From: a virus | IMG/VR virus record: IMGVR_UViG_3300011114_000387 | Coordinates: 1 to 54,075 of that record | Strand: one strand, 5' to 3' | Length of the DNA: 54,075 bases | Shown here: piece by piece, positions 1 to 53,028 of the stretch | Layout: each line of letters opens with the position of its first letter | How positions within the stretch are numbered: the first letter of the stretch is position 1 | Position numbers and translations under genes: made by a program | The notes under the pieces: generated by a model | Databases searched by the model: none | Told to the model about the DNA's origin: nothing | What the model saw: only the letters and a program-made list of their open reading frames with translations

Positions 1-200
1 GGCCAGCACCGGCACGACTTTGTATGTGTAACTGAAGAACGGCAACGCAAAGTCACGGGCCAAACGGGCGCCCGTGGGCAGGTCGTCGTAGGTAAAAATA
101 AATTGCTGCGAATAGTCGACCGCGTCGTCAATATCTAAACCACGTTTACGGGCATCGCGATAAATCAAATAGCGGAAGAACAAATCCTCAGCTTCGTATG
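1..200. repeat. Terminal direct repeat, left copy
   Basis: These 200 bases recur at the right end of the window. The only difference is at position 74 (G here, T at 53949), which changes a Thr codon to a Lys codon in the minus-strand gene covering both ends. The repeat shows that the molecule is circular or terminally redundant and that the window ends are arbitrary. Confidence 0.97.
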
Positions 201-3200
201 CTTTGCCAGCGGGCTTGCGCAAGAAGAATGACAGGGCATTGAACACACGGTCTGCTGCCATGCCGGTTTTAGACTCACTCATCTGAGCCATGGCTTTGAG
301 TTGTTCTGGCAACTGGTCCATCAACTCAGAACGGTTAAACGTTCCACCAAACAAGCCGGCTTCTTTGGCTTCGTCGACCATGGCGTCGCCCTTGATCAAG
401 TCGCGCACGGCGCCGGCGTACTTACCCGCGTCCCAATAGGACACGCCGGCAAAGTGGGCCATCGTCAAGTTAGACAATACGTTGTTGGCGTGCGAGACTG
501 GATTGAGAACGGTCTTGCCCTCTTTCCACATTGACAAACCTTTGAGGTACATCTTGAGCAAATCGTTTTGCATCGAGCTGTCAAAGGTGCTGAGCTGGTC
601 CATCACTTCTTTGGGCACCCACTTACCACCAAGCTTGCCGTAACGGCGAACGTTTGCGGTGTCTTCAATTGTGGTTGAAGGGACTTTTACATAGCCCGGC
701 TGCTCTGTGCGGCTGGCGTAATTGGCTGCTAGGTTTTCGTACAGACGGCCAAGCGCTAGATCGCGCTGTGACTTGTTGTAGCCCATGACAAAACGGAACA
801 TGGCATCGCGGATCTCGCCCATGTCGTCACGTTCGTCGCGTGTGTAGTCACGCCACATTGTCACGGTGTCGCTGGTCAAGGGGTCGAACGTGGCATCACG
901 AACTTCCCAGCCTAAGTCAAGCCAGTCTTGCACGTCAGCCACCGGCACGTTCTCAAACATACCGCGAGCCTTAAGACTGTTGCCAGTGATCCCCTGCATT
1001 GTGCGGGTGCGGCCCATCAAACTCTTGGCCGCTTTCATCCATGCTTTTGTTTCGTCGCCAATCTTGGACTCGTAGAAACGCGGCAAGTATTTGCCGTCCC
1101 AGCGACCAGCAGCTTCTGGTGTCAACATGCCAAGGCGTACCAGTTCTGCGGTCTGCTCAGACATGATTGATTGCATTGAGGCGGCCAGTTCCAGCACTCG
1201 CTTGGGCGGCTTGACGCCGCGTTTAAGTTCGCCTTCAATGACATCGCTGATCATCTGGCGCTCTTGCTCTGGCAGGTCTTTAAGTTTTTCGGCTACGTTG
1301 ACCGTAAGGTCTTGAGCCTTTTCAACCTCAGTCTTCATTTTGCGCAGCGCCCGGCTAAGCTCTGGGCTGACTGGCTTCATGCCGATTATGTCGAGAACAT
1401 TGTTGGCCACATCGGCCACAGCCCGATAGGCCTTGGCTCCTGCGCCGAAGCGGAAGCGGCCAGTCTCATCACGGCTAAGAATCCAACCCTCGGTCTGACG
1501 GTTGCTGAACATCATGTCAGCCGGGTTTTCTTGGCGCCACTGAGAAGCGGCTAGGACAAAGGCGTCAAAGTCTTTGTCGCCAAACTCGTCGATTGTTTTG
1601 TAGCCAGCCTCTTCGGCCTTCTGTTGCAGAAAGACTTGTTGTTGCTTGGCGTCTTCGGAAAGCTCGCGCTGCTTTACGGAGTATTGCGGCCCGCTAGGCT
1701 CTTGCCCTCTTTCAGCTTCTCGCTGATTGCGCTGGACATTCTGCTCAGCTTTAGTTTGGCCTCCATCTGCGCGGGACTTAAGCGTGTCGAGGGTTGCGTA
1801 GTAGACGCGTTGGCTGATTCGGCCTGCGTCGAATTCTTCTTCTGTTGCATCTTGGAACTTCTCCAGTAAGCCTTCCCTGCTTACGACGGGGAGATCTGCA
1901 ATATCGATCTCTGCATAGTTGCCTGAACCGCGTGAGTTATCAATCACGTGGATTTTGAATAGTGGGTTATTGCCAAACTCTTGTTGCAGTTGGCGGATAA
2001 CTTGGTTGGAACCAGCGTGCGTTTTAACCAGCGACTCAAGGGTCACTGTTCGTCCGTTCTTTGGGTCCATCGCGCGGTTGAACACGCCGTTTACCAACGC
2101 GTCTACCGGCTCGCGGTATACATGAGCAATTATAACAGACTGCTCTTTGTCGAGCGCGGCCTTGATGTTTCGCTTGGCCTTGTCAATGCTGGACAGCGTG
2201 CCGTCAAAGATTGTGTGCGACTCGTTGAGGATAGGCGCAAGCAAGGCTTCGGCTGAAGATTTACCAGCTCCGCCACCGCCAGACATAAACGTGATCACGC
2301 CGCCCGGCTTGGACTCCTCAAGGCGTTGGTCATACAGCATTTGACTGAATGCGCTGGACGCCTCATGCACTTGCGGTGCAAGGCTGCGGTCTGCGCGGTA
2401 CTCGGGGGACAGGTTGCGGATAAGGTCGACGTCAATCTTCTTACCCTTCTCGGTCCCCTCAATCTCGGAGTACTGCCGAACAGCACCGCCAAAGTCAGAC
2501 AAGATAAGCTGCTCAAGTTTGGCATTGATGTCGTTGGCCCCGCGAGGACTAAAAGCGATTGGCGCACCGGTGATGTCTTTGCCATCTTCGCTAAACGTAG
2601 CGTTCTTGGCCAACACCAGAGGGCCGATCTGAATTACCTCATCAGCCTTGAGCACAGGCTGCATGGTGTCACGGTCGTAGAAGTAGCTGTGTCGGAATGG
2701 GTCCATACCGACCTGTGTCCAAGCCGGGTCTTTGATAGCGGCATCAGCCCGAACCTTTGCGGCTTGGTTGCTAATGGGTTTCCACTTGCCAAGCATGGTG
2801 GCAATAGTGCCTTTGCTTGTACCCTGTGCAATTTTGGTTGCTGCCTTTTGGTTCATGCCAAAAGTTACATCGGTCATTGCTGCTACGGATTCGTAGCCAA
2901 TGACAGTGCCTGCGTCGTAGGCTGCTTGCACTTCACGGTTGGTGGACTTGGGTGTGTGAATGCTAACCACCCACGAGTCATGCTCTTGATACGAAGGAAT
3001 GTCCAAACGTAGCTGGGCAAAGTCGCCTTTGGTTAAGGTGTCTGATGGCAGGCCGTACTTGGCTGCCTTCTCTAGGCTTTGACCACGGCCATTGGCCAAG
3101 GCATATTTAGCGTCGGCTGGTGTTGTAAGCGCAGGGACTTTTTCGTACGGATAGACCGGGCGAAGGTTGTCGACCATGGCGTTGTATTCGTCTTGGGTAA

Positions 3201-4473
3201 TCTTGCCTTCTTGCAAGTCGGTGACGGCTTGCTGCAATTCGTCGGTGCGCTTAAAGCGATCAGAGCTGACATTGGATACGCGGCTTGCTGCTGCGTTCTT
3301 TTGTTCGCGGCGGCTAAGGCTAGGCGCAATTACTTTACGGGCTACAATGCCAAGGCCAACATCAAGCTCGGTTGCATATCGAACTGGGTTTTCTACGGGG
3401 TATAAATATTTAACGCCGCCCGGGGCAATGTCAAACTTGGAATCTTTGGGCACCAAAGTTTGATCTCGATATTGATCAAATTGTTTTTGAGTAGTTACTT
3501 TTATAGGCTCGCCAATTGTTACCGCGCCAATTGCTTTAGCAGGGCCGTCGCCAGTTCTAACAATAGCAACTCGTTTTCCTACATAAGGGCGGAGCGAATC
3601 CGAAGCCCTAGTTTCTAAAGTTTTTTGGCCGTCAACAATTTTATCTGCGTATTGATTTTCACCATCTTGATTGACGTTAATCCCAGTGCTTTCAGTTTGT
3701 TCGCGGCGGCTAAGGCTTATGCCTGCGCCAGCAAACGCGTCACGCAGCGCTTTGGCCCCGTCCTCGGTGCCAATGCGATCGAAGTTGCCCTTAAGCGCAG
3801 CCGCTTGTTCATCGGTCATAGGACCTTTGCTCCAAGGTGCTGCGTCTTCTTGCTCCCTTTCAATGGCTGCGGCCGCTTTGCGCACATCGGCCAAAGGAAC
3901 TGTGGCAAGAAGGTCGGCCTCTGTGCCCTCAGTGAATGAGTACCAGTAACCGCCGTAGCGCGCAGGTTGACGACCGGCTTTTGTAACAGCGCCGCCCCCT
4001 ACGGGTTTACCCGCACGCAGCAAGCTGTATTCACCAAAGCCGCCTTCAGGCACTTTGACTTTGTACACGTAGATGGTGTCTGAGTTAACGCCCTCTGATC
4101 CCGCGCCGGTCTCATCATCGTCGATCATAGAGATGTAGCTGGCCAAGCCTTCGACGCTGGCGGCGTTGGTATTTACGAGGCCTTCCATGTTGGCCAAGCG
4201 AATCACGGTAATAGAGTCACCGGGCTTGGCTTCAAAGACATCGGGTTTTTCTGTACGGGGCCAGTCTTTAACCGGCGTTTGTCGGCCGCTAAAGGCTACG
4301 TCAAAAGGAGCGCCCACATCTTCGTCAGCTTTAGGCGCCAGCATTTCTGCTGCACGACTGGGCAGGTATTGTTCAAGCGCGCCTTGAAGAAGAAATTCTT
4401 TAAGTGCGGGTATGCCCTCAACTGTGGTGCTCTTACCGTCAGCACCAGTGAACGTGTATTTACAGGTTGCCAT
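1..4473 (-). CDS. Giant polyvalent ejection protein (ASCH-like, zeta-toxin-like), N-terminal 1491 codons
   Basis: The frame opens at ATG 4473 and stays open to base 1. It continues from 53875 to a stop at 52988, giving about 1786 residues in the circular molecule. The protein is probably packaged and injected with the DNA, as are other phage polyvalent proteins. Around residues 275-360 there is an ASCH/PUA-like stretch with the motif VDGQKTLETR and YVGKRVAIVRTG. Around 720-900 there is a zeta-toxin-like kinase with P-loop SGGGGAGKSS (residues 731-740). Such kinases phosphorylate UDP-sugars or small molecules in toxin systems; activity here is inference. Near residue 1321 is NPVSHANNVLSN, typical of the long C-terminal region of these proteins. 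The motif SLSRREQ occurs twice. The gene starts 4 nt after the ferritin stop codon, so the two are co-translated. Confidence 0.9.
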   Translation of the reverse strand, partial: MATCKYTFTGADGKSTTVEGIPALKEFLLQGALEQYLPSRAAEMLAPKADEDVGAPFDVAFSGRQTPVKDWPRTEKPDVFEAKPGDSITVIRLANMEGLVNTNAASVEGLASYISMIDDDETGAGSEGVNSDTIYVYKVKVPEGGFGEYSLLRAGKPVGGGAVTKAGRQPARYGGYWYSFTEGTEADLLATVPLADVRKAAAAIEREQEDAAPWSKGPMTDEQAAALKGNFDRIGTEDGAKALRDAFAGAGISLSRREQTESTGINVNQDGENQYADKIVDGQKTLETRASDSLRPYVGKRVAIVRTGDGPAKAIGAVTIGEPIKVTTQKQFDQYRDQTLVPKDSKFDIAPGGVKYLYPVENPVRYATELDVGLGIVARKVIAPSLSRREQKNAAASRVSNVSSDRFKRTDELQQAVTDLQEGKITQDEYNAMVDNLRPVYPYEKVPALTTPADAKYALANGRGQSLEKAAKYGLPSDTLTKGDFAQLRLDIPSYQEHDSWVVSIHTPKSTNREVQAAYDAGTVIGYESVAAMTDVTFGMNQKAATKIAQGTSKGTIATMLGKWKPISNQAAKVRADAAIKDPAWTQVGMDPFRHSYFYDRDTMQPVLKADEVIQIGPLVLAKNATFSEDGKDITGAPIAFSPRGANDINAKLEQLILSDFGGAVRQYSEIEGTEKGKKIDVDLIRNLSPEYRADRSLAPQVHEASSAFSQMLYDQRLEESKPGGVITFMSGGGGAGKSSAEALLAPILNESHTIFDGTLSSIDKAKRNIKAALDKEQSVIIAHVYREPVDALVNGVFNRAMDPKNGRTVTLESLVKTHAGSNQVIRQLQQEFGNNPLFKIHVIDNSRGSGNYAEIDIADLPVVSREGLLEKFQDATEEEFDAGRISQRVYYATLDTLKSRADGGQTKAEQNVQRNQREAERGQEPSGPQYSVKQRELSEDAKQQQVFLQQKAEEAGYKTIDEFGDKDFDAFVLAASQWRQENPADMMFSNRQTEGWILSRDETGRFRFGAGAKAYRAVADVANNVLDIIGMKPVSPELSRALRKMKTEVEKAQDLTVNVAEKLKDLPEQERQMISDVIEGELKRGVKPPKRVLELAASMQSIMSEQTAELVRLGMLTPEAAGRWDGKYLPRFYESKIGDETKAWMKAAKSLMGRTRTMQGITGNSLKARGMFENVPVADVQDWLDLGWEVRDATFDPLTSDTVTMWRDYTRDERDDMGEIRDAMFRFVMGYNKSQRDLALGRLYENLAANYASRTEQPGYVKVPSTTIEDTANVRRYGKLGGKWVPKEVMDQLSTFDSSMQNDLLKMYLKGLSMWKEGKTVLNPVSHANNVLSNLTMAHFAGVSYWDAGKYAGAVRDLIKGDAMVDEAKEAGLFGGTFNRSELMDQLPEQLKAMAQMSESKTGMAADRVFNALSFFLRKPAGKAYEAEDLFFRYLIYRDARKRGLDIDDAVDYSQQFIFTYDDLPTGARLARDFALPFFSYTYKVVPVLA

Positions 4474-4477
4474 GTGG

Positions 4478-4969
4478 TCAGGCTCCCAGCTCCTGATCGA
4501 TCAAGAGCATGCCTGCCTTGTCGCCGTCCACTAACTGGATGCGGGCAAGCAAATCGCCGTACTCGCCAACGCTGGTGCGCTGAAGCTCCAAGAACTGCAG
4601 CAGGAACTGCTGAACCACGGGGTCGCTACTTGCTTGGGAGTAGTAGTCTTTGTAATTTTTGTAAAGCTCAAGCTCGGTTTCATAGGCCAATTCCATGGCG
4701 TCAGAAAACGACTTAACCGAGGCGGTCATAGCCTCAATCATGGGGACCTTAGCTACACAGCCAACGTCGTTTTGAAATTGGGCGTGCAGTTGGTAATGGT
4801 CCAACTCGGCTTCGCTTTCTTTTAAAAAGAATTTCATTGCACCAAGATAACCAAGGCGCTGCACCTGATTGGCAATGTGCTTGTACAGGTTTGAGGCGTA
4901 AAGCTCAGCGTGGATTGCGTCGTCTAGCATGCGCTTGAGGTCGGCAGAAATGATCATTGTTGGTGTCAT
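4478..4969 (-). CDS. Ferritin-like diiron protein
   Basis: A 163-residue four-helix protein close in length to bacterial ferritin FtnA (165). Residues that line up by spacing with the FtnA ferroxidase centre are E22, Y29, E55, H58, E99 and Q130 (FtnA E17, Y24, E50, H53, E94, Q127). The FtnA E130 position seems to be Ser133. Ferritins oxidise Fe(II) and store Fe(III) in a 24-subunit shell; whether this one assembles is unknown. The gene starts 9 nt after the stop of the 1957-residue polyvalent protein, with an AAGGG ribosome site that overlaps that stop, and ends 4 nt before the next giant gene. It therefore belongs to the late ejection module rather than a metabolic cassette. A rubrerythrin- or Dps-like protein is less likely because there is no CxxC or Dps inter-subunit pattern. 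Confidence 0.82.
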   Translation of the reverse strand: MTPTMIISADLKRMLDDAIHAELYASNLYKHIANQVQRLGYLGAMKFFLKESEAELDHYQLHAQFQNDVGCVAKVPMIEAMTASVKSFSDAMELAYETELELYKNYKDYYSQASSDPVVQQFLLQFLELQRTSVGEYGDLLARIQLVDGDKAGMLLIDQELGA

Positions 4970-4978
4970 GGTAAACCC

Positions 4979-7900
4979 TTATTTGCAATTGATTTCAACT
5001 AAGCCAGCGGTGTCCAGCTCGTCAAGGATGTCGAGGAAATTATCCTGCATGTATTGGATCTGAGCCGCATCTGACCGCCGCGCAATCACAGCCTCCGTGT
5101 TGGCCTTGGCCAATCCGCGCTTTTCTAATCCGGCGAAGATGTCTTTGAGGGAGATGCGGTTTCCGATGAAAGTTTCCCGCTCTTCTCCTTGGATCGGGCC
5201 AGCTGGCCCGCTCGGCTGGCCAGCCTGCTTATTTGTTCCCGCGACCGACTCGCCAGCCACTTGTCGTGTTGGTCTTGGTCCAGATTCGGCTGCTGTGCTG
5301 ATTCGTTTTCCATCAAAACCTTCTTTCGTAAGTAGTAATTCTGCCGCACCTGCGTAGTCTTGGCTAGTCACTTGCAGATCAACGCCCAGCTTTTTGTACA
5401 GCTCTTGTTCTGGATACCAGATCAAAGCCTGCAAAGCGGCCGGGGGTACGCGCTTGCCGGTTTGCTCTTCAACCAAAGTCACCAACTGACGGGTTACGTC
5501 ACGTAGACGCTGGCGTTCACCGCCGCTAGAGGGGGAGTCGGTAGGCTTGTCAGCCGATTTAATAATCCCGTTAGACGCACCTACCAAAGCGGTTTTAACG
5601 CGGGCGCCTGAGTCAAACGCAGCCCGCTCTTTGATAAATTGCCGGTTGTGTAGGCTGTATATTTTACGCGCCAAAGCAATTGCGCCCTCGTCGGTTTGTT
5701 GCGCAGCGGCAACATCTTCCGGCTTAAAGTCTGCGGCATAAAGGCCCCGGCTTGAATCGCCGGTCTCAGCCAAAGCGGCGCGCAGCTTGGCCACTTGCTT
5801 GGGAAACAGGACTGGGTCAAACGCTGGCAGCGTACCGCTAAGGCGGCCGATGGTGCGCATGAACCACATGTCCATGGTAATTGGTTCGAAGTTGCCGGTG
5901 AGATTACTGTAAAAGCCGAAGCCAATCTTGGGGCCAAAGATGGCCGAGCCAAGCATCTTCTCATCCATCGACTCAGAGCCAATTGGAAAACCAATAGATT
6001 CCAGCTCACGTTTGGTGAACTCAGTTTGCAAAAAGCGGCGCAGAAGATCCGGCCCCATATCGGCCATCACATCGTTGGCCAATGCAAAGTTCTTAGCCAT
6101 GGCCGGCGCAGATTTGCCTTTGCCGACTTCAGGGAATTTGCCTGTTGCGCGGAAGGCTTCGTATTGACTAGACGCGTAAGTCAGGTTGGCTTCCACGTTC
6201 ATTGTCTGAGAGGCGATGGCAACGGCCATCAAGAAAGCATTGCGTGCGTTCGGGTCCGTGTCCAACTCTGGGTATTTGACAGCCATGATGCGTAGCGTTT
6301 TAGCTACGGTCTCGTCGTACCATTCAACGGCATTGCCGGCGCTGCGGATTGCGCCAACAGCTTCAGCTGCCAACATGCGCGCCAGTGTGCTGCGGTCCTC
6401 GTCTTTGTTGATGTCAAGGGTCGGCATGCCTGAATCGCGGTATCGCTGATCCAGCCATTGAATGGTTTCTGGAATGCCGCCAATGTTGGGGGCGCGGAAG
6501 GTTTTGCCTTTCACACCGCCCAACATTAGGGGCAGAGCACTGGCGTTGTACTCTGCTTGGGAAAGACCGAAGGCGTCTGCAACAGAGCGATAAACGCCTG
6601 TGTCTATTTTGCGCCCGCCGGTACTTTCATCTTTCGCGAGTTCGGCTTCGATGGCGGCGCTGGCTTCTTCGCGGATGCGACGAGCCTCTGTCCGTTTTGC
6701 AAGAAGCTCGGGAGACCCTGTTCCCTCTTGACCATAGTCATACTCCTCTTTGGAGGGGAAGGCCATCTGGCCATCCCCGGTTTTTAAAATAAAGTTTTCC
6801 GGGCGATTGCCAAGAACGCTTTCTATTTTTGATGCAAGGTCGTCCATACTAGCAGAAGGAACGGCCAAAACCATCTCTTGCCCAACCGTTGTGTGGCCGC
6901 TGATGTTTTCTGGCGACACCTGCCGCAAGTCTTGATAAACGGCGTCGACTGATTTTTGATCGACCATGTTTTCTGGCAACGTGATCGTGATCAAACCGAT
7001 AGGTGATGAACCTTCAAAAGGTTTGGAATCCAAAACCATCATGCTGTCTTGAGCTAAACCAAACCCGCCTAACCGAGCAACATCCATGAGCTGCTGAGCA
7101 GATGCCGTGCTTGAAACAAGCGCAGCAAACGAAGGACTTGTTTTTTCAAGATAGCCGCCCAACTGCGGGGTCATCTTAGCCCTAACGCCGGCGAGCTTAA
7201 ACACTTGAGGCATGATCTTCTCAGCAACCCTTTGGCTGATTTCAATCTTGCGTTCAAAAGGCACTGCGTCCCAACGAGCGGTAAGCTCGGTATTGTTAGG
7301 ATCGGGGGCGACCTCAAACATAACCCTAGCGGGTGCTGTTTTCTTGCTGAACCTGACGTCACTGCCGATGCGTTCCAACTCTACGTTGGCTGCGTCGCGT
7401 GAAGTGGCGGGGATCTCCAGATTGCCAGCAGCAACGCGAGCACCCGGTACACGGGAAGCCTTGATGGCGGCCAACTCTTTGGAAAGAAGCCCCTTCTTCA
7501 GCGTTGTGGGTTCGGCTGGTGTAGGGGCTGGGGCACCGGCCACGCGACCCAAAGATCTTACGGGTACGGCAGAGTGGCGCGGGCCCAGCAACACGACGGC
7601 TGACTGGTTGTTCCCAAAGGGGGCCAGATAGCCGTCAAATCCGGCGTTGATTACAGCTGACTCAAAGGCATTGAAGCTGCCCTTTGGTGGAATCAGTTTT
7701 GTTTCGGGGTCGTAGATGTTGTTGAGCTTGGCTTCGTGGGCGATACCTCCGACTCCTGCTTCTGGTCTGACGCCGGAGCCTTGGTCAACATAGAAATAAA
7801 CGCGGTTTTTGAGGCGAGGATCTGGGCTACTGTCCAGCCGATCGCGCTCTGCACCTTTGAGGCCAGTCCCATAATAAGCTCCATTTAACGAGGTACGAGG

Positions 7901-10852
7901 TTGGGTTGAGAAGTGTTGGGCAACGACGGAGACCGCGCCTTGGCGGGCTGTTCCGTACTCTGGGGCTTGACCGCCCCCATCTCCACCAGCGAGTTGTCGA
8001 TTTGACGCTGCAAGTTGCGATATTCCTTGAGTTCCTGTGGTGTCTGCATTTAGGGTTCCTTTGCTGTACGCAATAAGCGCATCTCGAGCAATCACTTTTG
8101 CTTTGCTCAGATCTCGAATGTAAGTGTCAACCAAGGCCGATTCTTTTTGGCCTTGAGTTGGTGTGCCTTTAAGCACGCTCAGCATATTGTCAACGATGCC
8201 AAGCCACTTGTCGACAAAACCCTTGAATCCTTTGGGATCTGTAGCAGCAAGGTCTTTCCAGAATTCTTTGTCGGTGGACCTGTTGCCCAAGAAGTCGGCG
8301 ACCATTTCAGAGCGGGTAGTTGGGGACGCCATCAAGTCTTGAATGCGTTGCTCTTTTGCAACAGGATCTGTGATGCCGGCCAGCTCTTCCGCGTTCAAGA
8401 ACTTTACAAGGTAAGAGCGCTTGCCGTCTTCGGTCATGTCATCAAAGACCGTGTTCACACTGGCAACGTACTGCTGAGCAGGTGTGTCAACCAAACCCTG
8501 TCTGGCTTCGAGCTTAGCAATTTGCTCAACCGTGTGATGGAATTCGTGAATGCTGGTGCGAGCAACGTTGACGTCCACGTTGGCCGTGTTTACGAAAGCG
8601 GCGCCGCCAATGGCAACGCCGTTCAGCGCGTTGGGCCGTGGGTCTATGTAGGCGTAAAGCTTGCCGCCAAATTGGCTGTTGAGAGCTTCGCCAATTTGAT
8701 TGACTGCGCTATCCAGCTCGGCTGGGGCAGCGTTAAAAACCGCTGGGGTTTCTACACCGTTGGAAGTAGCCCACCGGTCGATAGCAACTTGTGCAATTGC
8801 TCTCGCTCCAGCGGCGGCAGACTCTCCTCCCACTGGCGCAATTGCGGTACTAGGCACTTGCGACTCTGGAAGGGCAAGGGTTTTGTCGGCAATGATGCCT
8901 GCGTTTTGGTTGGTTGGTGCATTAGCCAATGGTACGCTAGGAGCGGTTTCAAGTCCAGTGGCTAGGGTAGTATCAGCCACTTCGTTTTGACGCGCTGTAA
9001 GCTCAACTGATGCGCTACGGCGGGTAATTGCTGGGATGGTTTCGTCGCCTGCAATTGTTGTCAGTTGATCGTCTGTCAAGCTGGTAACAGGTTGGCCTTG
9101 GATCTTTTGTGGACGAGGTGGCGTCAAACGCAACTTGTCCAAACCAAACTGTTTTTCGGTAGCAACATCTGGTTGAAGGGGCGCGTTGGCATCAAACGTT
9201 GGTTCGCCCGTTGGCGGCAACGGAGGCAAAGCCAAGCCCGTTAAAGAGGGCTCAATTGCGCGAGGCAACGGGGGTAAGGCCAGATTTGTTAAAGTGGGTT
9301 CAATTTGGCCGGGCAAATTAAGCGGCTGCAAATTGATTGGGGGCAAGTTGACCGTTGGGATACCACCAGCCAACTCAGCTGCTGCCGTTGCTGCGCTGCT
9401 TGCGTCTGTGGCGGTAAAGATCGTGCTGGTATCGACCGGCTCGACGTTGATTTTGCCAATGTTTAGATTGGTTGGCGCGTTGCTAAAAGGACTCAGCTGC
9501 TGGCGGGCTAACTCATCTATTCCAGTAAACTGGGTGTTGGCCACGTTTTCATTGATGGCTTGCGCAATTTGATTTTGAGGCTCGTAGCGGCCGGTCAAAA
9601 TACCGGCTGTTTGTGGGGAGGAAATAAGGCCGCCGCTAACCGCGCCAACAATGGCTGCGTCTTTCAAACCCTTAGTCAGCTCGATGTCCTTGCCTTGGAA
9701 ATACTTGTCCAAAACATTGCCGCCAAATTGAGCAGCTGTTTCTTCAATGGCATTAGTCACGCTAACAATAGTCTGTTGGCCGCCGGCTTGCAAAAGTCTT
9801 TGACCGGCAACGGCCAAAACGGAACTTTGCTTAAGCGGCGATAAGCCTTTAAGCGCATCGCCAATTTTGTCAAAGGCTTTTAATGGCAGCATTTCGGTGC
9901 CAACTTCAACCAATCCTTTAGCCGCAGCAATCATTGCTGGGTCACCTTGGACATAGCTTTGGCCAGCTGAAGTGGCGCCCATAGAAGGCAACAAAACCGC
10001 ACGTAACGGCGGCGCAAACATGGCAGCCATTGACATGCCGGTTGATTGCAAATTAGCTGCAAGTTTGACGCCGAGCCACTTGCCAAATTCTTCTCTGGCA
10101 ATAGCGCCGTCCGATGAACGGCTGTTAATCTTTGGCATGTACTCAGCCGCTGTCTTTGTCAAATACTCAGTACCAAACATCTGGCCAACTTTAGGCAGTG
10201 GTTGCATGCCAGCAGCCTGAAGCAAAGGATTAACTGTAAAGTCGTTAAACAGTTGGGCGGCAACGGTCGGAGCATTGATTGTTCCTGCTAGGCTTGACGC
10301 CATGCCAGCTTGAAGAGCACCGGTCAGTGGGTTCTCTTCGCCAAAACGTTGACGACGCAAAGTCTCGGAGTTGCTTTCAAAGGTTTCGGCTTCTTTAGCC
10401 TTATCAACCAAATCAAAAAAGCTGGTTTCTTTAGCCTGCTCACGGGCCTTGGCCACGGTCAACACCGGACCCGGTTCGATCGGGATCATGCCGCGTCGCA
10501 TCTCGTCGGCCTTGGCCACGGTCTGCAAACTAACAGGACCAGCGCCGTAGCTCAAGCGTTTGTTAAGGTCGGCTTGCCGCTCTTCAACCGTGGGCTGATA
10601 GGTCTCCATCACGCTCTTGTAAGGCGTAAACTTTTCAGCAAGGGCAGCGGGGATGTTGGAAACAGTACCTTTGACCGTCTCAAACGCGCGTGAGATCAGG
10701 CCTTGGGGTTCAGGCGGTGGGGGCTCGGGCGCTTTGTAGCGCGCGGCCAAACGTGCGGCATCATCCCCGGTATCACGAACTTCAAAATCTTCGATTGGCC
10801 TAAACGTTAGGCCGCTATCTTTTTCAAAGTCTGAAAGCGGAATAAAGCGCAT
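4979..10852 (-). CDS. Giant polyvalent ejection protein with zincin metallopeptidase motif
   Basis: A 1957-residue protein, the largest complete gene in the window. Polyvalent proteins of this type are packaged in the capsid and injected, carrying several effector domains that protect the incoming genome. The N-terminal 600 residues are low complexity (Pro/Leu/Asn rich, with repeats such as LTNLALPPLPRAIEPSLTGL). An HEFHH zincin motif lies at residues 769-773. A segment at about 970-1105 (AQHFSTQP, YGTGLKGAE, YFYVDQGSG, GYLAPFGN) resembles toxin-like ADP-ribosyltransferase folds; this is tentative. A conserved helical region around 1480-1720 (WYDETVAKTLRIM, FEPITMDMWFMRTIG) is not one I can name. 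It follows the coiled-coil protein gene (stop 10855) with a GGGAAA ribosome site. Confidence 0.85.
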   Translation of the reverse strand: MRFIPLSDFEKDSGLTFRPIEDFEVRDTGDDAARLAARYKAPEPPPPEPQGLISRAFETVKGTVSNIPAALAEKFTPYKSVMETYQPTVEERQADLNKRLSYGAGPVSLQTVAKADEMRRGMIPIEPGPVLTVAKAREQAKETSFFDLVDKAKEAETFESNSETLRRQRFGEENPLTGALQAGMASSLAGTINAPTVAAQLFNDFTVNPLLQAAGMQPLPKVGQMFGTEYLTKTAAEYMPKINSRSSDGAIAREEFGKWLGVKLAANLQSTGMSMAAMFAPPLRAVLLPSMGATSAGQSYVQGDPAMIAAAKGLVEVGTEMLPLKAFDKIGDALKGLSPLKQSSVLAVAGQRLLQAGGQQTIVSVTNAIEETAAQFGGNVLDKYFQGKDIELTKGLKDAAIVGAVSGGLISSPQTAGILTGRYEPQNQIAQAINENVANTQFTGIDELARQQLSPFSNAPTNLNIGKINVEPVDTSTIFTATDASSAATAAAELAGGIPTVNLPPINLQPLNLPGQIEPTLTNLALPPLPRAIEPSLTGLALPPLPPTGEPTFDANAPLQPDVATEKQFGLDKLRLTPPRPQKIQGQPVTSLTDDQLTTIAGDETIPAITRRSASVELTARQNEVADTTLATGLETAPSVPLANAPTNQNAGIIADKTLALPESQVPSTAIAPVGGESAAAGARAIAQVAIDRWATSNGVETPAVFNAAPAELDSAVNQIGEALNSQFGGKLYAYIDPRPNALNGVAIGGAAFVNTANVDVNVARTSIHEFHHTVEQIAKLEARQGLVDTPAQQYVASVNTVFDDMTEDGKRSYLVKFLNAEELAGITDPVAKEQRIQDLMASPTTRSEMVADFLGNRSTDKEFWKDLAATDPKGFKGFVDKWLGIVDNMLSVLKGTPTQGQKESALVDTYIRDLSKAKVIARDALIAYSKGTLNADTTGTQGISQLAASNRQLAGGDGGGQAPEYGTARQGAVSVVAQHFSTQPRTSLNGAYYGTGLKGAERDRLDSSPDPRLKNRVYFYVDQGSGVRPEAGVGGIAHEAKLNNIYDPETKLIPPKGSFNAFESAVINAGFDGYLAPFGNNQSAVVLLGPRHSAVPVRSLGRVAGAPAPTPAEPTTLKKGLLSKELAAIKASRVPGARVAAGNLEIPATSRDAANVELERIGSDVRFSKKTAPARVMFEVAPDPNNTELTARWDAVPFERKIEISQRVAEKIMPQVFKLAGVRAKMTPQLGGYLEKTSPSFAALVSSTASAQQLMDVARLGGFGLAQDSMMVLDSKPFEGSSPIGLITITLPENMVDQKSVDAVYQDLRQVSPENISGHTTVGQEMVLAVPSASMDDLASKIESVLGNRPENFILKTGDGQMAFPSKEEYDYGQEGTGSPELLAKRTEARRIREEASAAIEAELAKDESTGGRKIDTGVYRSVADAFGLSQAEYNASALPLMLGGVKGKTFRAPNIGGIPETIQWLDQRYRDSGMPTLDINKDEDRSTLARMLAAEAVGAIRSAGNAVEWYDETVAKTLRIMAVKYPELDTDPNARNAFLMAVAIASQTMNVEANLTYASSQYEAFRATGKFPEVGKGKSAPAMAKNFALANDVMADMGPDLLRRFLQTEFTKRELESIGFPIGSESMDEKMLGSAIFGPKIGFGFYSNLTGNFEPITMDMWFMRTIGRLSGTLPAFDPVLFPKQVAKLRAALAETGDSSRGLYAADFKPEDVAAAQQTDEGAIALARKIYSLHNRQFIKERAAFDSGARVKTALVGASNGIIKSADKPTDSPSSGGERQRLRDVTRQLVTLVEEQTGKRVPPAALQALIWYPEQELYKKLGVDLQVTSQDYAGAAELLLTKEGFDGKRISTAAESGPRPTRQVAGESVAGTNKQAGQPSGPAGPIQGEERETFIGNRISLKDIFAGLEKRGLAKANTEAVIARRSDAAQIQYMQDNFLDILDELDTAGLVEINCK

Positions 10853-12426: not shown

Positions 12427-13176
12427 TTAACCAAAGAGGCGAGTATTGATATTTTTGTTGTAACGGGCACGTGCGTCGGCCGACAGCTTCTCTTGACGCT
12501 GGGCTTCTTGCTGAGCACCGTAGCCTTGCATTGCACCACCGATAAGCTGAGTGCCGCCAGAGATAGCGGCGTACTGGCCATAAGGACCTAAGCCGCTCCA
12601 AAAACCAGATGACGCTGGCGCAGCTGCCGTGTTAAGGGCTGAAAGAGTTGAGCCCACTGGAAGAGTACTGGCTACACCGGCAGAATTTAAACCGGCTGAA
12701 GCGGGAATGTTTAAACTTGCTGCGCCGGGTACTGTTGTGCCACTGGTCAACGCTCCGGGTGTGGACGTCAAGCCCGTTGCACCGCCGGTGCCGGCAGTCA
12801 GACCGGTTCCGCCTCCCATAGCACCGGTTACCAAGCCGGCAGGCGCTGTGGTTGCAGCACCAGCAGCGCTTGCACCAGTAAAGCCTGAGCCAAGAGCCGA
12901 GCCAGCCGCGCCAACATTACCGGCCATTAAAGAGCCCCACGCGGTTGAAACCCCCGTGGCCGCCCCCGATAGCCCAGCGGAGGCCCCTGTAAGGAAGCTG
13001 CCTCCCGCAGCGGAAGCACCAAAGCCCCCCATCAAAGCGGCACCGCCAAAATAAACAGCTGCTGCGGTTAATAAAATTTTGCCCAAACTAGAACTGGCGA
13101 CGCTTTTAACAACGTTTACTACACCGTTAACAACGCCGGAAATGGCTCGGCCAATTCCTTTAACAACTTGACTCAT
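12427..13176 (-). CDS. Internal virion protein, Ala/Gly-rich, membrane-active candidate
   Basis: A 249-residue protein made of small residues (Ala, Gly, Ser, Thr) over residues 10-200, with hydrophobic segments such as ILLTAAAVYFGGAALMGGF. It ends in a charged helix (AQQEAQRQEKLSADARARYNK). The pattern resembles T7 gp14-type internal virion proteins, which enter the outer membrane during ejection. No sequence motif proves this. ATG overlaps the GNAT stop codon (ATGA), so the two genes are translationally coupled. Confidence 0.7.
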   Translation of the reverse strand: MSQVVKGIGRAISGVVNGVVNVVKSVASSSLGKILLTAAAVYFGGAALMGGFGASAAGGSFLTGASAGLSGAATGVSTAWGSLMAGNVGAAGSALGSGFTGASAAGAATTAPAGLVTGAMGGGTGLTAGTGGATGLTSTPGALTSGTTVPGAASLNIPASAGLNSAGVASTLPVGSTLSALNTAAAPASSGFWSGLGPYGQYAAISGGTQLIGGAMQGYGAQQEAQRQEKLSADARARYNKNINTRLFG

Positions 13177-13625
13177 ACAGCAACCTTTCTTATGTAGGAG
13201 AGATTTAAGGATTCACGCTCAAATCCCGCCCGTTTTAAAAACTTTACAAGCCGAGGATCGGCACTTGGCTCCAGCTCCAATACAGCTACTTTAATGGCTG
13301 ATCGGCTTTTAACCCATCTAGCAAACTCACGCAACAACGGCAGCCCAGCTCCGGGTACCCGGCTGTAGTACAGCAGCACAGAGCACTGAAGCTTTTCAAA
13401 CCAGAACGACGGTTGGACCACGGCACCTACTGCGGCGACCACCTTGCCCTCGACCTCCGCAACCCACACGAAATGGGCCGGATTGATTGCAGCTCTGGTG
13501 GTCTGCTCCATGGCTGCACGATCAATCTTGACGGGCAACGGGTTTTGAGACACAGACTCCACCGCCAAATCGACGATAGCCGGAACATCGTCTAATTTGG
13601 CTTTGCGGCAAACAATTTTGGTCAT
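13173..13625 (-). CDS. GNAT-fold acetyltransferase-like protein
   Basis: A 150-residue protein with the order of elements of a GCN5-related N-acetyltransferase: an N-terminal strand and helix (VCRKAKLDDVPAIVDLA), strands around HFVWVAEVEGKVVAAVGA, a loop and helix (VPGAGLPLLREFARWVK), then AVLELEPSADPRLVKFLKRAGF, the usual C-terminal beta-bulge region. The acetyl-CoA loop is weakly conserved. GNAT-fold proteins occur in the internal virion modules of several podoviruses, where they may help assembly rather than acetylate. It is coupled on both sides by ATGA overlaps. Confidence 0.75.
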   Translation of the reverse strand: MTKIVCRKAKLDDVPAIVDLAVESVSQNPLPVKIDRAAMEQTTRAAINPAHFVWVAEVEGKVVAAVGAVVQPSFWFEKLQCSVLLYYSRVPGAGLPLLREFARWVKSRSAIKVAVLELEPSADPRLVKFLKRAGFERESLNLSYIRKVAV

Positions 13626-42867: not shown

Positions 42868-43086
42868 CAGGGTAATAGGGCATTACAGGGCAATTGATTT
42901 CCTATATATACCTTTGGGAAACACTAACATTTGCCACAACTGTCAAGTATCATCTTCCTAAAATATGTATATCTTTTTCTATTACCCTTATTACCCTAAC
43001 TACTATATTCTTCAATGATTTCAAAGACTTAAGTCAGGGTAATAGGGCAGGGTAATAGGCAGGGTAATAGACCCCCTATTACCCTG
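42868..43086. repeat. Iteron cluster, probable replication origin
   Basis: Seven copies of the 9-mer AGGGTAATA: plus orientation at 42869-42877, 43036-43044, 43049-43057 and 43061-43069; inverted at 42980-42988, 42989-42997 and 43077-43085. The stretch from 42891 to 43030 between copies is very AT-rich. The cluster lies between the VRR-NUC and primase genes; the last copy covers the primase stop codon. Iterons beside an AT-rich segment and a primase-helicase gene are the usual layout of an origin. Confidence 0.72.
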
Positions 43087-45394
43087 AAAACTCAGGCTCA
43101 TCGGCAGGAACCAAGAAAACCACACGTCCGTTCGTCTTTTTGCGCTGACCGCCGTTCAACTTCTTCAATGCCCTGCCGGCCGTAATCGTCTGCCCTTTTG
43201 ACGGATCGCGCACCCCAATCTTCATTAGCGCATCGGTTGCCGTCACCCACAAATCGCTTCCAAGCCCCAATTCCGACCAGTTAAATGCGGCCGCCACGCG
43301 CTCCTCGATCGGATCGACCACCGTAAATTCCTCGTTGTGGGTGTTCAACTCGCCCATCTCTTGCATGTTCAGGGCCCAGTTCTCGCCCCCAACCCACAAC
43401 CCCTTCACTTCGGCCCAAAGCTGCTGAATGTCAATACCGCTGTCCAAATCAAACCCGTCAACCTCGATCGACCAAAACCTGCGGTTGCCTGTTGGGTCAC
43501 TCAGGTATTGAGATTCGTTGACCGTTCCGCCAAACACGGTGCGGCGACCAAAGTTCGATTCTGTTGCGGCGTATGGCCGGCGCAGCTTGTCCATGGCCTG
43601 CGTTGTGAATGACTTCAACGCGCTAATCTCAGACTTTGAGAACGTCGCGTCAAGCTCACCCAGCTCGACAATCCAATAGGACAGGGCAATGAAGATCGAG
43701 TCCTTGGAACGCATGTCAAGCGTGTGGCCTGTCAGCACCGCGTCAAGGTGGGCCGGCGCCAGCCTCTGGAACCAAGTTGTTTTGCCGATGTTCTGTGGGC
43801 CAACGAAAGTCAGGATGCCTTGGCCGGCAATGCCGTCAGGGCTGAACGCTGCAGCCACCGCTTGGATGAGCCACTTGCGCATGAGCTTGCGCTTCATCTT
43901 CTCGCCCCCGGCCGGCACCCGCACAGTGGCATAAAAGTCGTCAAGCCGCGACACACCGTCCCACCCCCTTGAATCGATCCATGTGGCCACGGGGTTGTAT
44001 TGGTTCTTGTCTGCGAGGGTGATCAGGAATTGAGCAACGTGCTTGGTCGGCATGCGCACCTTCTCGCACTCAGACAGGACGTGTGAGATGGCCGCGTTGT
44101 CACGGTTGTCACGTGTGAAGGCGCTCCCCGGTATAAGCAGCTCGATTGCCTTCTTGATCACGTTGTATCTGACCGAATACTGCAACTTGTCCATCAGCAC
44201 ATAGAAGTTGTCAAGCGTGCATAAGGGATAACCCTCATCGTTCAAGTTGACGAAGCCGCCCGAGACTTTGACCCTTGCCCGAACCCACCCCCGTACAGTT
44301 GACAGGGGCAGCTTCGTGCCAAGGTCCTTCGCCCGCATCTGGATCGCAACTGCGATCTGTTCGCGCTCCACGTCCGACACTTCGGCAGTGTGTGCAATGC
44401 CAGCCGCGATCTTTTCTTGCAGTTGGCGCACGTCTGTGCACGCAGCCACCATGTCCATCACCGCACTCAGAGCCACATCGCGCTTGTCCAGCTTGGCCAC
44501 ATCCCGCTTGTCTTTAGTCATGTGCAGCAGCGACGCAAGCGTCACTGCTCCTCGACCCGTCGCGCGCTGCTGGCTAAACGTCCCCCACTTTTCAGCGCAG
44601 TAACCAGATACCCACTTGTCAGAGACCGCGCTCCAGTTATCCCAAGCCTCAAGCCACTCAGGGTCGCCGCCGCTCTGGTGGTGCAGTGCCGCACCGACCT
44701 TGAGCCACTCGCCGTACCCCACATCAGGGTCAAGGTGCACGAGCACTTCATCGACCACGCGGTCAAGCTCCCAGCCGTCAAGAGCGAACTTCAGGTTGGC
44801 AAAGCCGTCTTCGTCGTCACCGCCTGCCGCGCCCATCTCTTCGTCCCACACCTTTGCAATCATCCAGCCTAGGTCCTGCGGCAGCACCGGCAGCGACGCG
44901 TGGCCGTTGATCGCATGGCCAGTCACTGTGAAATAACGGCCGTCTTTGTACAGCTCAACGCCAGCCTCTTTTTTGGTCCGACTCCCGTCAAGGTTTGTCT
45001 GTGTGAAGATCTTCAGGCCAGTGCCAGACGGCGATACCTCGGCGTAGCCCTCGACTCTGTCGAGCGTCTCTTGCGCCAGATCCGACAACACCCCGGTGAC
45101 CGGGTCGCGGCAGTCGTCTAGGTCGATGCCGTGCAGCATGCCACCAAGCACAATGCCAATACCGTCGTAGTCGCCAAGCGGGTATTCGTCTACGGCCGCA
45201 CCGAATGAAGCCCATGTGGCCGCATCGGTTGAGCTGCCTGCGCCGCCCTTGGCAGAGAGCGGCATCTTGGCCCAGACCTTCTCGCCGTTGGGCTTGCTGC
45301 GCTGCACGTTCTTCCACAGGACCCAGCGGTCCAGCGCTTGCAGGTCTTGGGGTATGTTGTCTAGGCTGAGCGCCAGTACTTCGGGGCGAGTCAT
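43079..45394 (-). CDS. Primase-polymerase with VirE/D5-type helicase
   Basis: A 771-residue replication protein. The N-terminal 170 residues look like an archaeo-eukaryotic primase-polymerase: GIDLDDC (catalytic Asp pair) and EVSPSGTGLKIF. A PriCT-like helical linker follows. The C-terminal helicase of the VirE/D5 type has Walker A GPQNIGKTTW near residue 531 and FGGTVNESQYLSDPTGNRRF. It should prime and unwind at the origin directly downstream. A short duplication, DKRDVA twice near residue 300, is visible. Start overlaps the upstream stop (ATGA). Confidence 0.9.
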   Translation of the reverse strand: MTRPEVLALSLDNIPQDLQALDRWVLWKNVQRSKPNGEKVWAKMPLSAKGGAGSSTDAATWASFGAAVDEYPLGDYDGIGIVLGGMLHGIDLDDCRDPVTGVLSDLAQETLDRVEGYAEVSPSGTGLKIFTQTNLDGSRTKKEAGVELYKDGRYFTVTGHAINGHASLPVLPQDLGWMIAKVWDEEMGAAGGDDEDGFANLKFALDGWELDRVVDEVLVHLDPDVGYGEWLKVGAALHHQSGGDPEWLEAWDNWSAVSDKWVSGYCAEKWGTFSQQRATGRGAVTLASLLHMTKDKRDVAKLDKRDVALSAVMDMVAACTDVRQLQEKIAAGIAHTAEVSDVEREQIAVAIQMRAKDLGTKLPLSTVRGWVRARVKVSGGFVNLNDEGYPLCTLDNFYVLMDKLQYSVRYNVIKKAIELLIPGSAFTRDNRDNAAISHVLSECEKVRMPTKHVAQFLITLADKNQYNPVATWIDSRGWDGVSRLDDFYATVRVPAGGEKMKRKLMRKWLIQAVAAAFSPDGIAGQGILTFVGPQNIGKTTWFQRLAPAHLDAVLTGHTLDMRSKDSIFIALSYWIVELGELDATFSKSEISALKSFTTQAMDKLRRPYAATESNFGRRTVFGGTVNESQYLSDPTGNRRFWSIEVDGFDLDSGIDIQQLWAEVKGLWVGGENWALNMQEMGELNTHNEEFTVVDPIEERVAAAFNWSELGLGSDLWVTATDALMKIGVRDPSKGQTITAGRALKKLNGGQRKKTNGRVVFLVPADEPEFSG

Positions 45395-47613: not shown

Positions 47614-47858
47614 TGGCAAAAGTAACGATCATCATTGAGGACAAGGAAGACGAGGTCATGGTTCATGGCAGCGTTGAGCCTTTCATGACTGAGGACAAGC
47701 TGGTATTTACTACAGCGGAAATCATTGGCCTGTACATGCAAGACAACATTGCAAAGATCATGGCCGACGCGGTCAAGTGGTCGCAGACGCCGGACCCAGT
47801 GGAAGAAGTGGCCGTCAAAGAACCAAGCCGCATCATCTTGCCGGGCGCCGAGCTATGA
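47613..47858 (+). CDS. Small acidic protein
   Basis: An 81-residue protein (MAKVTIIIEDKEDEVMVHGS) with a helical middle and a C-terminal tail. Unknown function. Overlaps the next gene by ATGA. Confidence 0.7.
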   Translation: MAKVTIIIEDKEDEVMVHGSVEPFMTEDKLVFTTAEIIGLYMQDNIAKIMADAVKWSQTPDPVEEVAVKEPSRIILPGAEL

Positions 47859-49027
47859 CCATCGAACTAGCACACGCCAAACTGTCCGCATCTGGCAGTG
47901 AGAAGTGGATGACCTGCACGCCAAGCGCGCGCATGGAAGAAGCGTTCCCAGACGAGGGCAGCGAGTTTGCCCGCGAAGGTACGTTTGCCCATGCAGTGTT
48001 TGAGCAGGAGCTGCTGCACTACCTTGGCCGCGAGGTCGAGCCTTTGCCAAACGAGCTGATGCACTTTGATTCACCAGCGCTTGTCGACTACGTGCGCGAG
48101 TCGGTGGACTATTGCATCGAGCGGATCAAGGCGGCGCGTGCTAGGTGCAAGGACCCGGTGTTCTACGTTGAGCGCAGGCTTGACTTCAGCCGTTGGGTGC
48201 CAGAAGGTTTCGGCACTGGCGACTTTGTGATCATCACTGACGAGCTTGTCGAGGTGCTGGATTTGAAATACGGCAAGGGCATCTTTGTTGACGCGAAGAG
48301 CAACAGCCAAATGCGTTTGTATGGTCTCGGTGCTTACAACGAGTTGGCCGACCTGTACGACATACAGAAAGTGCGCATGACCGTATTGCAGCCACGCCTT
48401 GGCAACTACAGCAGCGAAGAGCTTTCAATAGCCGAGCTGCTCAAGTGGGCGGACGAGGCAGTTGTGCCAGCAGCCAAGCTGGCTTGGGATGGCGAGGGTA
48501 CGTTTGTCCCCGGGCCTCATTGCACAAGCAGTTTTTGCAAAGCAAGGTACACATGCCCTGCACGCGCAGAAGGCGCGCTTGCTGTAGCAAGGCAAGAGTT
48601 CAGTTCGCTGCCACCGGCAGTGGACACATTGACACTGGACCGCATCGCCCAGTTGCTGCCTAGCGCAGACGCTGTGATCGATTGGTTTACAGACCTGAAG
48701 GCCCATGCACTCAAGCAGGCCGAGAAAGGTACGACAGTCCCCGGCTACAAGCTGGTCGAGGGCCGAAGCAATCGCAAGTACAGCGACCAAGACGCCGTGG
48801 CCAAAGCGCTGCGCGACGCCGAGGTCCCTGACGAAATTGCATACGAGCGCAGCCTGCTTGGCATCACTGCCATGGAGAAGGCGATCGGTAAAAAGAAATT
48901 TGTTGAGGTGCTGGGGGATCTGATCACCAAGCCCGAAGGCAAACCAACGCTGGTGCCCGAAGGGGACAAGAGGCCAGCACTTACATCTCGTGTATCCGCA
49001 CTTGATGATTTTTCTAAACCAGTCTAA
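47855..49027 (+). CDS. DUF2800 protein, PD-(D/E)xK nuclease-like
   Basis: A 390-residue DUF2800 protein. The N-terminus LSASGSEKWMTCTPSARMEE, then FAREGTFAHAVFEQELL, FGTGDFVIITDELVEVLDLK and YGKGIFVDAKSNSQMRLYGL carry the D...DLKYG core of the Cas4/AddB-like PD-(D/E)xK fold. A Cys cluster (CTSSFCKARYTCPARAEG) may hold an iron-sulfur cluster, as in Cas4. It probably acts in DNA end processing or recombination with the downstream SSB and polymerase. Confidence 0.86.
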   Translation: MTIELAHAKLSASGSEKWMTCTPSARMEEAFPDEGSEFAREGTFAHAVFEQELLHYLGREVEPLPNELMHFDSPALVDYVRESVDYCIERIKAARARCKDPVFYVERRLDFSRWVPEGFGTGDFVIITDELVEVLDLKYGKGIFVDAKSNSQMRLYGLGAYNELADLYDIQKVRMTVLQPRLGNYSSEELSIAELLKWADEAVVPAAKLAWDGEGTFVPGPHCTSSFCKARYTCPARAEGALAVARQEFSSLPPAVDTLTLDRIAQLLPSADAVIDWFTDLKAHALKQAEKGTTVPGYKLVEGRSNRKYSDQDAVAKALRDAEVPDEIAYERSLLGITAMEKAIGKKKFVEVLGDLITKPEGKPTLVPEGDKRPALTSRVSALDDFSKPV

Positions 49028-49036: not shown

Positions 49037-49576
49037 ATGACTACCGACTACAAAGTTATCACAGGCAAAGTTCGCCTCTCTTTCACCAAGAACGTTTTCA
49101 CACCTGATGAAAAAGGTTCTTACTCAATCATGATTTTGATTGACAAGAAAGACAAAGAGACCTTGGCCAAAATCAACGGCGCTGTTGACAAGTTTAAGAC
49201 TGACCCCAAGGCAGTAACCATTTGGGGTTCTAAGTTCTTGGCCAGCTTCAAGACGCCTTTGCGTGACGGCGACACAGACCGCGACACTGAGAAGTACCCA
49301 GAGTACAAGGGCCACTACTTCATCAATGCCAATACGTACAACAGGCCCGGCGTTGTTGATGCTCAAAAGAACGACATCATCGACAAGTCAGAGTTGTACA
49401 GCGGTTGCTACGGCCGTGTGTCCATCATGCCTGCGGCGTACAACGTCGACGGCAACAAGGGCATCAAGTTCTATTTGAACAACGTGCAGAAGCTGGCCGA
49501 CGGCGAGCCTCTAGGTGGCAGCGTGTCCAACGCAGCCGACGACTTCACTGCTGTTGAAGACGATTTCCTGAATTGA
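49037..49576 (+). CDS. Single-stranded DNA-binding protein, Enc34-like (DUF2815)
   Basis: A 179-residue protein of the DUF2815/Enc34 type, a single-stranded DNA-binding OB-fold family of phages. Conserved parts are TGKVRLSFTKNVFTPDEKGS, YSIMILIDKKDKETLAKI, YKGHYFINANTYNRPGVVD and CYGRVSIMPAAYNVDGNKGI. The C-terminus is acidic (DFTAVEDDFLN), as for SSB partner-binding tails. It is encoded between DUF2800 and the polymerase, its usual neighbours. Confidence 0.9.
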   Translation: MTTDYKVITGKVRLSFTKNVFTPDEKGSYSIMILIDKKDKETLAKINGAVDKFKTDPKAVTIWGSKFLASFKTPLRDGDTDRDTEKYPEYKGHYFINANTYNRPGVVDAQKNDIIDKSELYSGCYGRVSIMPAAYNVDGNKGIKFYLNNVQKLADGEPLGGSVSNAADDFTAVEDDFLN

Positions 49577-49832: not shown

Positions 49833-49917
49833 CGAAGAGCTTTGGATCTTGGTGCGTCATTACGAGCACCTGATCCAATTACTTCTGGAACAATTAGATG
49901 ACAACCCTACGAATTGA
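49804..49917 (+). CDS. 37-residue overlapping micropeptide
   Basis: MTQQTSHLSNEELWILVRHY then EHLIQLLLEQ, a helical peptide overlapping the previous gene by 29 bp and the polymerase start by 20 bp. The ribosome site is weak. It fills the only gap in the operon and is plausible, not proven. Confidence 0.45.
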   Translation: MTQQTSHLSNEELWILVRHYEHLIQLLLEQLDDNPTN

Positions 49918-52807: not shown

Positions 52808-53028
52808 AGATATGGACCGAAGACTTTGTGTTGGCCAATCCAAAACTAGCAGCCGATGCAATTGGCTGTCTTATTGAATTGGCCACTGACACACGCAACG
52901 ATACACTAGATGAGATCTCAAAGAAAATAGCCGCCATGCCCGGAGACACGGCGGCTGGCATTGCCCTCTGGGTCAGGGATCAGAAAACTATTTCCGCTCC
53001 TCACCCTCTACCGTCAGACCAGCCTTGA
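52804..53028 (+). CDS. Last gene of the rightward operon
   Basis: A 74-residue protein (MKIWTEDFVLANPKLAADAI, LIELATDTRNDTLDEISKKI) of unknown function. ATG 52804 overlaps the membrane-protein stop; the earlier in-frame start at 52777 lies inside that gene. Its 3' end overlaps the convergent giant gene by 41 bp with no terminator visible. Confidence 0.66.
   Translation: MKIWTEDFVLANPKLAADAIGCLIELATDTRNDTLDEISKKIAAMPGDTAAGIALWVRDQKTISAPHPLPSDQP

Follow-up and report, generated by a model that had tools for sequence, protein, structure and literature searches.

The presence of an apparent ferritin gene between two giant genes in the late region of a phage raises the question of whether its product is a true ferritin, why the gene sits at this particular place, and whether the protein could travel in the phage particle. 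The window analysed here is the whole 54,075-base IMG/VR record IMGVR_UViG_3300011114_000387, for which an earlier note, made from the letters alone, had proposed a ferritin encoded within a module of ejection proteins. A direct repeat at the two ends of the record (1-200 and 53876-54075, 199/200 positions identical, 99.5%) means that the genome is closed (~53.9 kb), though the record is treated as linear. The genes for head, portal/connector and tail share the strand of the ferritin gene, which is located inside a late structural operon, as the note had placed it. The portal is distantly like the portals of HMO-2011-type and Pseudoalteromonas podoviruses. No tRNA that could serve as a host clue was found in the window, and a weak pointer to the host comes from two contigs with a matching ferritin that fall in Burkholderiales MAG bins, one of them Rhodoferax.

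Table 1. Position of the ferritin gene, its flanking giants (G1 upstream, G2 downstream) and associated signals in the window.
Feature	Position	Strand	Basis or remark
Ferritin, 163 aa	4478-4969	-	ATG at 4969 to TGA at 4478; Pfam, AlphaFold, Foldseek, ligand alignment
AAGGG, ribosome-binding-like site for ferritin	4976-4980	-	Sequence inspection; overlaps the G1 stop codon
GGGAG, ribosome-binding-like site for G2	4483-4487	-	Sequence inspection; within the end of the ferritin gene
G1, upstream half of the giant, 1,957 aa	4979-10852	-	ORF; dozens of loci have a homologue immediately before ferritin
G1 C-terminal tail, last 42 aa, ...QDNFLDILDELDTAGLVEINCK	4982-5107	-	Seen only in giants that ferritin splits
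G2, downstream half of the giant, first 1,491 aa	1-4473	-	ORF; Zeta_toxin and L5 gp82-like domains; ferritin directly followed by a homologue in other loci
G2 N-terminal head, first 38 aa, MATCKYTFTGADGKSTTVEGIPALKEFL...	4360-4473	-	Only where the giant is split
Rest of G2 across the closed-genome ends, 361 aa (~66 repeat the terminal overlap)	52988-54075	-	Terminal repeat; identity to relatives

The ferritin, its fold and its iron site

The plus strand of the ferritin interval is broken by stops and the gene is on the minus strand (Table 1). Its ORF matches the Pfam Ferritin family at 5.1e-16 (59 bits against a cut-off of 24.5), and a sequence search of the PDB aligned nearly its whole length with ferritins at ~1e-8, the matches shown being non-haem ferritins. 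The AlphaFold monomer model (pLDDT 93.5) contains the five ferritin helices A-E (residues 9-38, 42-68, 88-112, 117-146 and 151-162), so that the predicted protein has the four-helix bundle and short fifth helix E of the ferritin class. Foldseek aligned this model with 24-mer bacterial and archaeal ferritins at TM 0.93-0.95, and the FtnA-type proteins of E. coli (1eum), Thermotoga maritima (1vlg) and Archaeoglobus fulgidus (1s3q) share with it the same length, helices A-E and the A/B-site ligands. With 24-mer ferritins as the best PDB matches in both sequence and fold, and with helix E predicted, the protein does not belong with the 12-mer Dps proteins. The four-helix fold expected from the letters is borne out, and the gene at this position is a genuine ferritin gene.

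Three scans of viral sequences reported 53, 113 and 163 relatives, from which ~118 non-redundant loci were analysed. The diiron ligand set of ferritins (Glu, Glu, His, Glu, Gln) is present in every phage copy compared, residues E22, E55, H58, E99 and Q130 being invariant in 116/116 homologues. Position 29 is Y in 73 of these and W in 43, with the metal ligands unchanged. All six ferroxidase residues named in the earlier note, Y29 included, were found at the positions claimed and are invariant in the 53 nearest viral homologues; in the phmmer alignment, the ferritin ligand pairs with E99 and not with E97. The third (C) site of bacterial FtnA, built from three extra Glu, is found in 33/33 bacterial ferritins and in none of the phage copies, which have I/L/F/T, S/A and V/I at the corresponding positions 129, 133 and 134. 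The phage protein, although a ferritin, is thus no typical bacterial FtnA. It further differs from FtnA-type ferritins in an identity of only ~20-25%, a separate long-branch clade and a setting in phage virion modules.

When the phage copies were placed in a tree together with 33 Pseudomonadota ferritins, a very long branch with full support set them apart from the bacterial sequences. As this was the one bacterial phylum sampled, the donor may lie elsewhere. A search for a recent host source gave no match besides the phage contig in 301 genomes of the family of the Rhodoferax MAG, and the best cellular match in 398 genomes of the same phylum reached 79 bits against 215 for the phage contig. 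Between the window ferritin and its near kin, dN/dS is 0.05-0.13, a sign of purifying selection, and the gene is therefore not a chance ORF. Among isolated phages (INPHARED), no match to the window ferritin was obtained at 1e-3 and two weak ones at E up to 10, while PHROG 16594, a family whose function is not annotated, is a detectable relative (3.8e-8). Judged from these comparisons of sequence, the phage copies appear to form a deep, phage-only ferritin branch that has kept the ferroxidase centre and not the bacterial third iron site.

The spacing given in the earlier note agrees with the ORF coordinates: the upstream giant stops at 4979, leaving a gap of 9 nt, and the ATG of the downstream giant at 4473 follows the ferritin gene after 4 nt. 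The AAGGG lies six bases ahead of the ferritin ATG, and its placement, like that of the GGGAG ahead of G2, is typical of translational coupling. Programmed readthrough producing a G1-ferritin fusion was considered, the 9-nt gap being in frame in the window, but the gaps vary among relatives and several are out of frame, and this candidate was rejected. No fusion-length ferritin ORF, that is, none longer than 174 aa, occurs among the ~118 non-redundant viral loci.

One giant gene divided at the ferritin

The giants on either side have the make-up of polyvalent proteins, in which a single chain, encoded close to virion genes, brings together a number of unrelated effector domains. Such proteins have been argued to be packaged and injected, are encoded among late virion genes and can be fused to MuF or portal domains (PMC5512222). 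The likeness extends to the domains themselves, with Zeta_toxin and L5 gp82-like domains in the G2 of the window and ART-PolyVal in the G2 of locus L031. The published survey of 131 polyvalent-protein domains makes no mention of ferritin or iron (PMC5512222), and unlike the fused domains described there, the ferritin of the window is a chain of its own, encoded between the two halves of the giant. The likeness of G1 and G2 to podovirus ejection proteins comes from their position after the tail genes only. The window edge cuts the G2 ORF, whose full length is ~1,786 aa across the genome ends; the product of the distal segment is 89-90% identical to the G2 C-termini of L004, L005 and L009. A fold-based identity for the C-terminal core of G2 was not obtained, the AlphaFold model reaching a pLDDT of 47.7. 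An (F/L)SxR motif recurs between the giant domains, at residues 61, 254, 386, 641 and 989 of the window G2 (5 copies against 0.6 expected) and also in the giants of L134 and L081, and perhaps marks linkers or processing sites.

Relatives without ferritin were found by a search with the G2 C-terminal core. Wherever they included enough upstream sequence, the giant was a single ORF, of 2,505-4,057 aa, whereas in all the ferritin-bearing G2-core relatives it was cut into G1 and G2 at the ferritin. In the window lineage the ferritin marks the precise point at which a single giant gene is divided, which is new here; the earlier note had missed that its two giants are one split gene with conserved ends. 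Three loci are exceptions (L167, L171 and L177), with a ferritin that follows an unsplit giant and no G1-type tail. A ferritin hidden inside the unsplit giants was also considered and was rejected, as they gave no ferritin-HMM match and no tail or head motif, and Pfam ferritin (PF00210) was absent from four ferritin-less records of 46-58 kb. Absence of the gene from close relatives with the same giant module had been named beforehand as a point that would refute the earlier reading. Some of these relatives do lack it, so the point applies in part and the gene is accessory.

Presence and absence of the ferritin have alternated at least twice on the tree of the G2 core. The giants of L074, with ferritin, and L134, without it, are 88% identical over the last 806 residues and 45-75% identical over most of G1; at the junction, the reading frame of L134 continues unbroken past the point at which L074 has the G1 tail, a stop, the ferritin and the G2 head. 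This pair is compatible with gain or loss of a ferritin cassette alike. The G2 of L059 ends in a core that matches the C-termini of the unsplit giants phrog_14770, 616 and 10691, with tail, ferritin and head retained, which we read as a modular swap of the G2 core behind a tail-ferritin-head cassette. The usual G2 core was below its usual level or swapped for another type, with the cassette kept, in L006, L008, L010, L059, L064 and L070.

The ends at the split are themselves conserved. G1 closes on the consensus ...NFLDILxELDDSGxVKINC(K/D) and G2 opens on MxxCxYxF...G...K.FL, and HMMs of the tail and the head matched only next to a ferritin and never in ferritin-less loci. A Cys was found within the last five residues of 68/71 upstream giants and within the first eight of 73/74 downstream giants, as compared with 15-17% of long ORFs generally. 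These counts take in distant lineages (L083 type), in which the head motif is recognisable by profile comparison (hhalign 93%, E 3e-7); a common origin of the tail motif in the same lineages was set aside as weak (hhalign probability 43%). Since L167, L171 and L177 have a ferritin with neither split nor tail, the ends accompany the splitting of the giant and not simply the presence of a ferritin. The Cys-bearing ends may join the G1 and G2 halves to each other, to the ferritin, or both.

Gene neighbours in other phages

In the window group, wherever a contig is long enough to judge, the ferritin is almost without exception flanked by a giant on each side. Over all the loci analysed, giants neighbour it in ~78. 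Elsewhere it follows a portal gene, of the phrog_6547 type in 26 loci and of phrog_21 in L079, or comes after a phrog_12082 portal and one small gene (L051 and L052). In L156 it has a MuF-type minor head protein on one side and a virion morphogenesis protein on the other. In L159-L161 the gene stands at the start of the structural module after a Cpn10-domain gene and adjoins neither portal nor giant; the protein encoded directly upstream (9126-9989, 287 aa) has its GroES-like (Cpn10) domain at the C-terminus. A few short or odd contigs, such as L058 and L053, were not classifiable by neighbourhood.

IMG/VR favours contigs with structural genes. However, a giant or a portal neighbours the ferritin in 34/35 contigs of at least 45 kb, and bacterial-type FtnA genes taken as a control from the same collection (23 loci) were within 5 kb of a contig end in 22 cases, as expected of host DNA at prophage borders. 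The long contigs and this control answer most of the bias. The synteny anticipated in the earlier note, a ferritin beside polyvalent-type giants, is seen in dozens of phages, with portal and MuF neighbours in other lineages. None of the accessible papers searched was found to describe an FtnA-type ferritin next to portal or ejection genes. That giants, portals and MuF proteins adjoin the ferritin across unrelated phages, within a structural operon, favours a role tied to the particle. The earlier interpretation, that the protein is made with the virion and perhaps packaged in it, is to this extent partly supported.

What the ferritin may do

We propose, with a probability of about one half, that the protein is an active ferroxidase, made late, that is packaged and delivered with the giants or portal proteins and holds iron around the incoming genome. 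The phage-specific ferritin would be made late in translational coupling with proteins of the portal vertex or ejection apparatus, and it would probably travel in the particle with the giant polyvalent-type proteins and enter with the DNA. The G1 tail and G2 head, each with its near-terminal Cys, may attach the halves to one another, to the ferritin or to both, and so permit joint packaging. Loaded with iron as an oligomer or cage, the protein would oxidise and hold ferrous iron around the incoming genome, giving protection from Fenton damage and/or control of iron at the start of infection. A ferritin cage measures 12 nm. The nozzle of T7 is described as opening to ~30 angstrom (PMC8954989), so the whole cage could not pass and delivery through the portal would need subunits. 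We prefer this model because polyvalent proteins have been argued to be packaged and injected and the neighbours of the ferritin belong to the same classes. Against it stand the fact that a gene neighbourhood indicates co-expression and not packaging, the close relatives that do without ferritin, the absence of the tail in L167, L171 and L177, the module-border position in L159-L161 and the size of the cage. The broader proposition of a family of virion-packaged, injected ferritins across unrelated tailed phages, built in one lineage into a split giant tied by its Cys-bearing ends, is more tentative, and we place it a little short of even odds.

If the packaged model is correct, some phages would carry the means of handling iron into the cell from the very start of infection, the old question of iron in virions would gain a genetic footing, and a giant injected protein divided around another protein would have a well-defined example. 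The protein family is a known one, and its setting here is new, conserved and mechanistically suggestive. L074 and L134, close relatives of which only the first has the cassette, allow its function to be tested directly.

The main rival is a ferritin made late that stays in the cytosol as the product of an auxiliary metabolic gene, storing iron or limiting oxidative damage and never packaged, with the structural operon serving for expression only. We take this possibility seriously, although the odds lean against it. An intact iron site under purifying selection would be expected from it as well, translational coupling needs late expression only, and one lineage has the gene at a module border beside the Cpn10-domain gene. 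The Dps and Mn-catalase genes of gut phages (Gratiaviridae and Lactobacillus phages) are seen as protection from oxidative stress (PMC8008677). Those are also ferritin-superfamily proteins encoded by phages, but they are of other families than the FtnA-type fold with its E helix and are not described as splitting an ejection gene. A cytosolic role does not readily account for the repeated portal, MuF-type and giant neighbours in unrelated phages, when the gene could be anywhere in the late region, nor for its precise position inside the giant gene with end motifs co-conserved on both flanking proteins.

Those same end motifs, which co-occur with the ferritin, and the adjoining portals could instead point to a ferritin fold used as structure, in which a helical bundle would serve as an adaptor, either linking the two halves of the giant or seated on the portal, and iron chemistry would be secondary. 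Phage-specific invariant positions of surface type that differ from bacterial ferritins (N67, D68, P76, G135, Y137, D139 and E51) would suit such a part. We regard this as improbable, as a purely structural role does not need five ligands that are invariant in 116 copies and as L167-type phages have the ferritin without the split ends.

Far less probable is entry of the Ferrojan-horse kind, in which iron in the particle exploits the iron-uptake receptors of the host. The earlier note had raised such a role, and we found no support for it. The idea has been put forward for phages generally and for Vi01-like phages, where gp217 of Sajous1, encoded near a tail gene and detected by mass spectrometry of particles, was assigned as a ferritin by Phyre2 only, and where TonB and FeoB mutants were infected normally (PMC10892097). 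The type phage Vi01 gave no PF00210 match even at E up to 10, and a Vi01 homologue of gp217 was looked for and not identified. Both gp217 and the window protein have been put forward as phage ferritins; the window family has no INPHARED sequence counterpart at 1e-3. In addition, the gene lies beside portal and internal-protein genes and not beside tail-fibre genes, and a ferritin keeps its iron inside the shell.

An artefact (host DNA, misassembly or a decaying gene) might be suspected from the lack of an isolated-phage match at 1e-3 and from the rearranged look of the L053 contig end, but it is already refuted by the identical arrangement in dozens of independent contigs, to which can be added a clade far from the Pseudomonadota FtnA proteins, intact ORFs with low dN/dS and a closed window genome. 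In L053, positions 1-6254 hold a ferritin fragment and the start of G2 followed by G1 on the opposite strand, probably an assembly inversion or chimera.

The structural operon of the window also contains a GNAT acetyltransferase gene (13173-13625, minus strand), conserved at 61-70% in many relatives and at 95% in L053. The replication genes of the window encode a DUF2800/PD-(D/E)XK nuclease (47777-49024), an Enc34-type ssDNA-binding protein (49037-49573) and a family A DNA polymerase (49898-51952) on the plus strand, and a VapE-like primase-helicase (43082-45394) on the minus strand.
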